Notes under the pieces: model-generated
What the model was told of the DNA's origin: nothing
What the model saw: the letters and a program-made list of their open reading frames with translations, nothing else
The model's database searches: none
Assembly: GCA_003554345.1 (NCBI GenBank)
Contig: PWGE01000131.1
Span: forward strand, 1-5,973
Source: T1SED10-198M sp003554345 [NCBI: Candidatus Sumerlaeota bacterium]
GTDB lineage: Bacteria > Sumerlaeota > T1SED10-198M
Length of the DNA: 5,973 bases
Reading direction: 5' to 3'
Shown here: piece by piece, positions 1,984 to 3,536 of the stretch
Layout: each line of letters opens with the position of its first letter
How positions within the stretch are numbered: the stretch's first letter is position 1
Made by a program: the position numbers and the translations under genes

Positions 1984-3000
1984 ATGTTCAATGGAAAATC
2001 CATCCTGATAACCGGAGGGACAGGTTCCTTCGGGCAGATGTTCGCCAGAAGACTGCTGGAAAACCACCACCCCCGCAAACTCATTATATTCAGCCGGGAC
2101 GAGCTGAAGCAGTTCGATATGCAGCAGGTTTTCGGCCATACCAGCATGCGCTACTTCATCGGCGACGTACGGGACATAGAGCGCTTGAAGATGGCCCTGC
2201 GCCGTGTGGACCTTGTGGTTCATGCAGCCGCGCTGAAGCAGGTCCCGGCTGCGGAGTACAACCCCACGGAATGTATCCGGACCAATATCCAGGGTGCTGA
2301 AAACGTCATCCAGGCCGCACTGGAATGCGGTGTCGAAAAGGTAGTGGCCCTGTCCACGGACAAGGCGGCCAACCCCATCAACCTGTACGGGGCGACCAAG
2401 CTGTGCTCGGACAAGCTTTTCACCGCTGCCAACAACCTGGCCGGGGACCGGCACACCAGGTTTTGTGTGGTGCGCTACGGCAATGTCGTGGGCTCCAGGG
2501 GTTCTGTTGTGCCTTATTTCCAGAGGCTTATCCGGGAAGGCGCTGATCACCTGCCCATCACCCATGAAGATATGACCAGGTTCTGGATTACCCTCAAGCA
2601 GGGGGTGGAATTTGTGCTCAAAAGCTTTGAGCGCATGCAGGGGGGAGAAATCTTCGTGCCCAGGATTCCCTCTGTGCGGATTACGGACCTGGCAACGGCC
2701 ATGGCCCCTGAGTTGCCCCAGAAAACAGTGGGCATAAGGCCTGGTGAAAAACTGCATGAGGTGATGTGCCCCAGGGATGATGCGCATTTGACCATGGAAT
2801 TCGCGGATCATTACCTGATCAAGCCGGCCATCAGGTTTTACAGCCTGAAAAATGACTACTCCACGAATATGCTGGGTGAAGAGGGGCGTCCTGTGGAGGC
2901 TGGCTTTGAGGACAATTCCGGGGAGAACCCGGAGTTTTTGTCGGTGGAGAGTTTGAGGTCCGGGGTCTGGGGTCCGGGGTCCGGGGTCCGGGGTCCGTAG
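1984..3000 (+). CDS. pseB: UDP-N-acetylglucosamine 4,6-dehydratase (inverting) PseB, C-terminus rewritten by a repeat
   Basis: PseB carries out the first step of pseudaminic acid synthesis: NADP-dependent C4 oxidation, C6 dehydration and C5 inversion of UDP-GlcNAc, in the cytoplasm. The 338-residue product is an extended short-chain dehydrogenase. It has the Rossmann GGTGSFG motif at 11-17, SRDELKQF at 37-44, YFIGDVRD at 57-64, HAAALKQVP at 80-88, the STDKA motif with D126/K127, the YxxxK pair Y135/K139, and [14 protein letters not shown] at 164-177. The [12 protein letters not shown] start is the family's usual one. About 325 residues are native. After SVESLR the frame enters a GGTCCGN heptamer array, gains 13 Gly/Ser/Pro/Val-rich residues and stops at a TAG inside the array. 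The catalytic domain is intact, so activity is likely. Its natural partner, pseC, lies 1.8 kb downstream past inserted material. In flagellated bacteria the sugar usually decorates flagellin. Confidence 0.93.
2951..2959 (+). repeat. Left copy of 9-bp direct repeat (putative target-site duplication)
   Basis: GTTTGAGGT in the last native codons of pseB. It is repeated exactly at 3528-3536 on the far side of the S23 gene and its arrays. The last few bases resemble a heptamer unit, so part of the match could be fortuitous. Confidence 0.6.
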
Positions 3001-3019
3001 TCCGTAGTCCGGGGTCCGG
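2957..3019 (+). repeat. Heptamer array 1 (GGTCCGN x9)
   Basis: Nine tandem 7-bp units: GGTCCGG, GGTCTGG, three GGTCCGG, GGTCCGT, AGTCCGT, AGTCCGG and GGTCCGG. It supplies the new C-terminus and TAG stop of pseB and forms the left inverted end of the S23 unit. Confidence 0.9.
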
Positions 3020-3054
3020 GGGACGAAGAGTGAATATATGTGCATGGAGGAAAT

Positions 3055-3447
3055 ATGGTGACCAACGGAAAACAAACAGTGATGTCTGCCAAAGATCTGG
3101 ATGTTTACAAGGTAGCTTATGAACTTGCTATGGAGATATTCCACGTAAGTAAGCATTGGCCAAACGAAGAGAAGTTTTCACTAACAGATCAAGTTAGAAG
3201 ATCCTCCCGTTCTGTTTGCTCAAATCTTCGTGAAGCCTGGTCAAAAAGAAAATATGAGGCACACTTCATAAGCAAACTTACAGACTGTGATGGTGAAAAC
3301 AGTGAAACAGACACCTGGCTTGATTTCGCAAAGGACTGTAATTATCTCAGCAACGAGAACTATAGGAAGCTAAACGACAAGTGCAGTCGCGTAGGAGCAA
3401 TGCTTGGGGGAATGATCAAAAATCCAAAACCTTTTCTGATTAAATGA
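3055..3447 (+). CDS. Four-helix-bundle protein of the S23 / intervening-sequence family
   Basis: The product (130 residues from ATG 3055) matches the small all-helical S23/IVP family. It has a KDLDVYKVAYELAMEIF first helix, then LTDQVRRSSRSVCSNLREAWSKR, then EAHFISKLTDCDGENSETDTWLDFA, and a last helix from YRKLNDKCSRVGAMLGGMI. The R-R-S-S-x-S-x-x-x-N-L-x-E signature is typical. Family members are found inside 23S rRNA intervening sequences and as free-standing genes. The accessory Avd protein of diversity-generating retroelements has the same fold. GGAGG at 3046-3050 precedes ATG 3055 by only 4 nt. GTG 3040 would extend the frame by five residues, while ATG 3082 fits the family start (M-S-A-K-D-L) but lacks a good site. 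The gene is flanked on both sides by inverted heptamer arrays and is visibly more AT-rich than pseB, pointing to separate origin. Molecular function is unknown; RNA or protein binding is plausible. Confidence 0.85.
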   Translation: MVTNGKQTVMSAKDLDVYKVAYELAMEIFHVSKHWPNEEKFSLTDQVRRSSRSVCSNLREAWSKRKYEAHFISKLTDCDGENSETDTWLDFAKDCNYLSNENYRKLNDKCSRVGAMLGGMIKNPKPFLIK

Positions 3448-3474
3448 AAGCAAAGTTTTTACGGCCTACCCACC

Positions 3475-3527
3475 AAGGACCTCGGACCTCGGGCCACGGA
3501 CAACGGACTACGGACCACGGACCTCGG
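3475..3527 (+). repeat. Heptamer array 2 (NCGGACC, inverted relative to array 1)
   Basis: Seven 7-bp units (AAGGACC, TCGGACC, TCGGGCC, ACGGACA, ACGGACT, two ACGGACC) plus TCGG. It starts 27 bp after the S23 stop codon. Its reverse complement is the same family as the array at 2957-3019, so the two could pair across the S23 gene. Confidence 0.9.
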
Positions 3528-3536
3528 GTTTGAGGT
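3528..3536 (+). repeat. Right copy of 9-bp direct repeat (putative target-site duplication)
   Basis: GTTTGAGGT, identical to 2951-2959. It is followed by TGACCGCATGA, which would be the original pseB 3' end: read in the pseB frame after excision it gives Leu-Thr-Ala-stop. Confidence 0.6.

Follow-up and report, generated by a model that had tools for sequence, protein, structure and literature searches.

A probable transposase-free mobile unit formed by an S23 gene and two inverted heptamer arrays beside pseB

Introduction

The closest described relatives of the element reported here are the intervening sequences (IVS) of 23S rRNA genes, among them that of Coxiella burnetii, for which the published account describes an S23 open reading frame (ORF) closely preceded by direct heptameric repeats, together with inverted ends and an RNase III site (PMC4990558). 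We analysed a 5,973-bp stretch of DNA (the window), which is the whole of contig C80 (PWGE01000131.1) of a draft Candidatus Sumerlaeota genome and carries an S23 gene, between opposed heptamer arrays, next to the gene pseB. As far as the IVS account goes, the window unit is like an IVS in its S23 ORF, in the long stem of its complementary ends, in having no transposase and in its sporadic distribution, and unlike one in that it lies between protein genes, that both of its arms are locus-specific tandem arrays of 6-8 bp units, and that S23 units are many-copy in several genomes and have deletion derivatives.

Heptanucleotide repeats are also known as orphans, namely the GGACCGG elements of Geobacter metallireducens (PMC2700814) and the GGGAATC and GGGGA(C/T)T arrays of Xanthomonas and Nostoc, for which no general association with mobile elements is reported in the portions of that paper available (PMC4692102). 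Like the arrays of the window these are tandem and lie between genes (in Geobacter within genes also), X. campestris having 70 convergent pairs, and the Geobacter GGACCGG is similar to the window unit GGTCCGG; unlike them, the published arrays are, in those portions, not linked to S23, whereas here similar arrays stand at the ends of S23 units. Miniature inverted-repeat transposable elements (MITEs) and other non-autonomous elements resemble S23 units in their inverted ends, internal-deletion forms and insertion between genes, but the ends here are not a conserved terminal sequence, no constant duplication is apparent, and full units encode S23 rather than transposase. Diversity-generating retroelements encode Avd, an accessory protein that is a related small four-helix protein; in contrast to them, the window has no reverse transcriptase among its seven ORFs scanned (this being a 6-kb contig, and a genome-wide search for one not having been made), and template and variable repeats were not seen. 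A literature search, of sources available in part, found nothing that connects tandem-repeat arms with S23 genes located elsewhere than in rRNA.

From sequence comparison, we consider it likely that the S23 gene and its two inverted heptamer arrays form one mobile unit of ~570 bp that entered a pse operon between pseB and the genes that follow it.

Results

The S23 gene of the window lies between inverted heptamer arrays

A preliminary description of the window had placed an S23-type gene between opposed arrays of the same heptamer with a 14-bp pairing, and this was confirmed by array search, by alignment and by matches to two protein families. The gene (Table 1; ORF listed from a GTG at 3040) matched PF05635 with an E-value of 2e-33 (115.2 bits against a cutoff of 33.8) and TIGR02436 with 6e-31 (106.9 bits against 24), and its protein matched bAvd (PF22296, E 5e-12) and, under the cutoff of that family, DivGenRetAVD (E 1e-10). 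Relatives found by phmmer in the PDB were 2RLD and 2GSC, with five chains listed for each. The arms are mutually inverted, with 2981-3026 pairing with 3482-3527 at 83% and perfect complementarity over 14 bp between 2992-3005 (GGTCCGTAGTCCGT) and 3503-3516 (ACGGACTACGGACC). In an inverted-arm test, an alignment of 450 bp of upstream flank with 450 bp of reverse-complemented downstream flank at each locus, the window scored 26.0, above a threshold of 18.7 (the 99th percentile of 3,364 Desulfovibrionales cross-locus pairs, reused for the other sets below). The RNA fold of 2951-3536 had a z of -5.3 relative to 100 shuffles, the arms pairing to close a long stem, and the sequence GTTTGAGGT was read on both sides of the unit, as had been claimed.

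Within 2960-3527 the S23 gene is the sole plus-strand ORF of at least 60 aa. No transposase was found in this 568-bp unit, minus-strand open frames there having been left out of the Pfam scan, in agreement with the earlier suggestion of a transposase-free element, and searches of the window against Rfam and of the phage collection each gave zero matches. The complementary ends close a stem around the S23 ORF, as in an IVS, and the arms consist of head-to-tail 7-bp units in several copies, as in published heptamer arrays; the unit is situated between pseB and a PIN module and not inside a 23S rRNA gene. In spite of this location we regard it as being of an IVS-like kind.

At the left border, the frame of the host gene pseB runs into the left array and its stop codon lies inside the array. 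Removing one direct repeat together with the unit had been predicted to recreate a pseB of normal length, and in length this stands: by arithmetic the restored gene ends ...SVESLR-LTA-stop at 328 aa, within the range of the 80 PseB homologues compared. The gap between pseB and pseC was -1 to 22 bp in 23/27 pairs found, compared to 1.8 kb in the window. This survey tried 31 loci, four of which (L278, L252, L068 and L108) gave no pair; L063 gave -2185, from an unlinked second copy, and G062 and L058, both counted in the 23, are one locus. A triple-heptamer pattern was present in 21/297 Desulfovibrionales genomes and in 0/10 of the genomes reached via named pseB loci.

S23 genes have inverted arms far more often than other genes

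That S23 genes elsewhere would be bracketed by inverted arrays of short tandem repeats, as had been anticipated, held in all four sets tested. Arms scoring above 18.7 were found at 39/60 S23 loci of Desulfovibrionales relative to 8/541 other ORFs (Fisher p 6e-38), at 27/46 loci of a second phylum, to which the draft genome belongs (0/55 controls), and at 10/18 loci on named plasmids of complete sequence, 17 of them from cyanobacteria and the other from Azospirillum (0/18 controls; 16/18 and 0/18 at 13.9). The archaeal set (phylum of Methanocalculus) was judged first at its own cutoff of 22.0, giving 4/33 compared to 0/45, and later at 18.7, giving 10/33 compared to 1/45 (p 6e-4).

The Desulfovibrionales loci came from a PF05635 search of 44 genomes with 85 over-cutoff matches, from which the 62 best-scoring minus two partial ones were taken, with the window added and one locus lost to a short flank. 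Tested in the other sets were 46 of 56 over-cutoff S23 matches (second phylum), 33 of 54 (archaea) and 18 of 26 records (plasmids). Control genes were taken from a simple ORF finder and not from curated annotation, and are few in these three sets (55, 45 and 18). The S23 counts are not all independent events, as some loci are mutually orthologous (for example G085/G105 and G459/G479). Among the eight arm-bearing control genes are a PIN-like ORF (L260, 507-911) and a GIY-YIG-like ORF (L261, 3672-3932), both named by eye, which are possible further cargo.

Arms share an architecture but not a sequence

Over 91 arm pairs, including 16 plasmid pairs admitted at a score above 14, the best period was 7 in 51, 8 in 21, 12 in 6, 6 in 4 and 9 in 2, with none in 7, whereas shuffled arm pairs showed no period in 81/91. 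Arrays of period 6, 7 and 8 within 300 bp of S23 numbered 11, 37 and 26, where 1.2, 6.8 and 4.4 were expected, the totals found being 18, 105 and 67; at each of the periods 5, 9, 10, 11 and 13 the number of arrays was between 0 and 6, and lag 12 (a multiple of 6), with 35 arrays in the first array survey, was left out of the enrichment count. The unit sequence is locus-specific (AGAGGTC, GTGAACG, GAGCTTT and GCAGGGGA are examples), with both arms matching within a locus. As the unit differs per locus and is 6, 7 or 8 bp long, the idea of one heptamer as the ends of the unit had to be given up; GTCCG heptamers were rejected as an S23 marker because the unit sequence changes from locus to locus. 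In the orthologues G085 L248 and G105 L228 (87% overall) the left array is GAGAGCT in one and GAGTGCT in the other, which suggests fast arm turnover. Terminal inverted repeats conserved among copies, as expected of MITEs and insertion sequences, were not found, as 39/60 loci had their own pair above the 99th percentile of cross-locus pairs; two-site copies of one block do have common arms.

Genes of the GxxExxY family (PF13366; L458-L486, the first 24 of 31 rows being tested) had inverted arms at 10/24 loci and same-strand flank repeats at 16/24, with arm units mostly of ~8-9 bp in a by-eye reading and each arm itself often palindromic. The candidate view of S23 as sole cargo is weakened by this packaging. 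In the window, a CACAGAG-type repeat at 948-1250 is present in ~three palindromic copies of 94 bp (TRF, 3.2 copies, 89% matches), which resemble the arms of some GxxExxY genes (L479, score 29; L465, 17.0, under the cutoff); no GxxExxY gene was found in the window.

S23 genes and arms recur as blocks, and sites without them exist

The S23 gene and both arms of G503 L365 and G508 L369 are alike (86% over 458 bp); the match breaks off close to the outer borders of the arms, and the flanks, to the extent that they were read, are unrelated. G459 L363 and G508 L321 (88% over 515 bp) behave as a block in the same way, similarity likewise stopping near the outer edges of the arms. An insertion present in G508 is absent at the orthologous site of G545, where the flanks are ~91% identical, and the filled site of G508 has GTGTTATAGT, a 10-bp repeat, on either side.

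At an archaeal site between two convergent genes, one of them TFB (named by eye), both genes were recovered in 19/20 stretches. The gap is -6 bp in G401 and 23-27 bp in three genomes, and G560 has a 35-bp solo array. In G508 there are 70 bp of arms, with an S23 tail by eye and none by blast; S23 fragments occupy the site in G526, G568, G582, G584 and G567 (130-332 bp), and the S23 gene of G580 is damaged (447 bp), all six being deletion forms. Intact S23 genes point in one direction in G371 and G545 (left gene unread in G545) and in the opposite direction in G479 and G566, and other sequences are present in G489, G436, G565 and G474. In the stretches of G565 and G474 (L413, L414) the site has a palindrome of 131 bp that gave no S23 match.

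A second site, between pgsA and pilT, was compared in 13 genomes. Gaps of 7-35 bp were found in G112, G077, G097, G136 and G071, and S23-less stretches of 53-167 bp in G139, G092, G120 and G087; an S23 unit is present in G116, and a different S23 gene with 6-bp arms lies inside a heptad array in G130, while G107 has inverted arrays and G102 a one-directional heptad array, both without S23.

Between S23 copies, dN/dS was 0.04-0.19 in 7/8 pairs with finite dS and 0.54, on few changes, in the eighth, indicating purifying selection on S23; for three more pairs, each including the window, dS was saturated and no ratio resulted. S23 genes were co-directional with both neighbours in 41/55 loci compared to 128/268 control genes (p 3e-4), so that the unit is probably read from host transcripts. 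On 8/18 plasmid stretches (L489, L492, L493, L495, L497, L498, L501 and L503) a tyrosine recombinase or integrase lies beside or near S23, which suggests a DNA route.

Direct repeats at the borders appear to follow no fixed length

The repeat flanking the window unit had been taken as a 9-bp duplication. Direct repeats of at least 9 bp occurred in 8/78 units relative to 1.9% of cross-locus pairs (for which the first 27 of the 78 units were used as left sides only), and a fixed 9-bp target duplication was rejected as a hallmark. The length is 9 bp at the window unit and 10 bp at G508, and the 9-bp match of the window is partly array-derived, because the GAGGT of its left 9-mer is that of a variant array heptamer (GAGGTCC).

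Other features of the window

The contig carries pseB, the S23 gene, an antitoxin-like ORF, a PIN ORF and a frame-split pseC, together with four heptamer array regions without an S23 gene (Table 1), so that heptamers alone are no marker of S23. The first of these regions may be a solo, MITE-like hairpin. The gene pseC looks interrupted or length-variable at the array pair within it, as the PseC match resumes in another frame past that pair. The antitoxin-like ORF (named by eye, with no Pfam match) and the PIN ORF lie between pseB and pseC at 4027-4813.

Table 1. Coordinates of the S23 unit and of the other annotated features of the window
Feature	Position	Strand	Basis or remark
pseB (UDP-GlcNAc 4,6-dehydratase, inverting)	1984..3000	+	TIGR03589 E 4e-161; ORF; 80 homologues of 327-336 aa
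GTTTGAGGT direct repeat, left copy	2951..2959	+	sequence; no longer direct repeat in the unit
Left arm, tandem heptamer array, unit GGTCCGG, 9.3 copies	2957..3021	+	array search, inverted alignment
S23 / 23S rRNA IVP / four-helix-bundle gene, GGAGG upstream	3055..3447	+	PF05635, TIGR02436
Right arm, same heptamer family inverted, unit ACCACGG, 8.0 copies	3472..3527	-	array search, inverted alignment
GTTTGAGGT direct repeat, right copy	3528..3536	+	sequence
S23-less heptamer arrays, GCATAGC-type, then opposed GCGCCCT/GCTATGCG-type	3891..4011	.	sequence, array search
Heptamer array linking PIN ORF and pseC into a single open frame	4735..4813	-	ORFs, array search
Inverted heptamer array pair within pseC	5469..5536	.	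PseC match split over two frames here
Additional heptamer array (GCATGGA), near contig end	5869..5933	+	array search

Discussion

These data are best read as an IVS-like, transposase-free mobile unit, the ends of which are alike in architecture rather than in sequence. The proposal that S23 units travel through protein-coding regions finds support in the blocks at unrelated sites and in the orthologous sites without S23; movement itself went unobserved, with neither excision nor transposition seen, and the case is one of sequence comparison.

Several observations weigh against this reading. At the window, the exact empty pseB site was looked for in relatives and not found, the best whole-length pseB DNA matches being at 73-75% (Desulfovibrionales), and the LTA-stop end predicted for the restored gene was not seen among the relatives compared, where the nearest ends were NHLAGF, NHLAQA and NHLACG. 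Three pse relatives (G074, G090 and G087) have 842-971 bp between pseB and pseC without S23; these stretches hold antitoxin-like ORFs (by eye), and the S23 matches of these genomes are on other contigs. No constant target duplication is apparent, the flanking direct repeats being in excess and following no rule. G560 also lacks the insertion of G508, yet ~50 bp differ at the junction, and the 10-bp repeat of G508 may belong to another element, because an extra outer hairpin there is absent from the sister unit in G503. The two copies at different sites in G078 (L259 and L260, 92%) have the gene and the right array in common but not the left array, and L259 is without inverted arms. At 18.7, S23 loci without arms number 21/60 in Desulfovibrionales, 19/46 in the second phylum and 23/33 in archaea, and flank similarity on the same strand is likewise elevated beside S23 (17/60 compared to 25/541 at the same value), so that some S23 loci also carry same-strand repeats. 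Arrays can precede or outlive S23, since at the position that the unit occupies in G116 its closest relative, G102, carries an array and no S23, and the related packaging of GxxExxY genes means that S23 may be cargo and not driver.

The last two points lead to an alternative in which the arrays are primary, short-tandem-repeat hairpins having spread by replication slippage and fold-back, with S23, GxxExxY and similar small genes as passengers or settlers. Heptamer arrays without S23 in the window and in relatives fit this, as do the triple-heptamer pattern in G103 and G286, which have no S23 match, the states of the pgsA-pilT site in G102 and G130, and the inverted arms of GxxExxY loci; so too, in the published portions available, do the 49 four-heptamer elements of G. 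metallireducens (PMC2700814) and the 70 inverted GGGAATC pairs of X. campestris, which are generally unassociated there with mobile elements (PMC4692102). We nevertheless hold it to be unlikely, though a serious contender, as arms and gene co-occur as blocks at unrelated sites, some short forms at the archaeal TFB site (those of G526, G568, G582, G584 and G567) are deletion remnants of S23 units, and arrays are at least 5-fold enriched beside S23. That the arms are instead a conserved mRNA hairpin, controlling or protecting the S23 transcript and not serving as mobile ends, would suit the stable RNA stem that they close and the co-directional bias, by which S23 is probably read from host transcripts. 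It appears improbable to us when block similarity stops near the arms at unrelated sites, sites without S23 exist and the arm sequences vary among loci.

An artefact of assembly or binning has to be considered for a repeat-rich metagenome contig, particularly as the window is an entire contig of a 454-contig draft. The triple-heptamer pattern occurs within the draft on C80 only, and the closest DNA relatives among those searched, including the best pseB DNA matches, are Desulfovibrionales; from this, C80 is probably misbinned. Misbinning would not generate the structure, and the same architecture is present on complete named plasmids and on large contigs (G102, G080), which makes an artefact a very remote explanation of the unit itself.

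Returning to the S23 gene and its arms as a mobile unit, a possible mechanism can be outlined. Paired with each other, the arms would form a long stem whose loop holds the S23 ORF, a layout shared with 23S rRNA intervening sequences, and the S23 protein, as an Avd relative, may bind this stem and help the unit to re-enter DNA. As the unit yielded no transposase, recombinase or reverse transcriptase, the chemistry would come from the host or from enzymes acting in trans, re-insertion proceeding either from RNA with a reverse transcriptase or from a DNA hairpin with a recombinase. Arm units would diverge fast by repeat slippage, and the ends would therefore be kept as architecture and not as sequence. 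The narrower version with an RNA step, in which the stem-loop RNA, excised like an IVS from the host transcript, would be bound by S23 as an Avd-like cofactor and copied into new sites by a host reverse transcriptase, is one that we advance tentatively and think doubtful. The S23 protein belongs to the IVS protein family and is related to Avd by the profile matches given above, a resemblance of PF05635 to Avd being stated in the part of PMC10053308 available; the sense-strand bias points the same way, and RNase III is described as processing Coxiella IVS RNA in the stem of the inverted repeats (PMC4990558, in part). It sits less easily with the seven scanned ORFs of the window, which include no reverse transcriptase, with the recombinases and integrases near plasmid S23 genes, and with units in opposite orientations at one archaeal site.

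More broadly, S23 units may constitute a widespread transposase-free class of mobile elements in bacteria and archaea, with ends defined by architecture, the IVS as its best-known member, many orphan arrays (those of Geobacter, Xanthomonas, Nostoc and the window) as remnants, and GxxExxY as a sister cargo; we put the chance of this a little below even. The ends of such a class would be arrays inverted to each other, whose 6-8 bp units may vary freely in sequence, with GxxExxY arms of 8-9 bp. Two old puzzles, the role of the IVS S23 protein and the over-representation of heptamer arrays in the genomes of many bacteria, may then have one answer. If arms do keep architecture and not sequence, searches for terminal repeats by sequence would miss S23 units, and the family that annotations usually call just 'four helix bundle protein' would be a marker for a mobile-element class.

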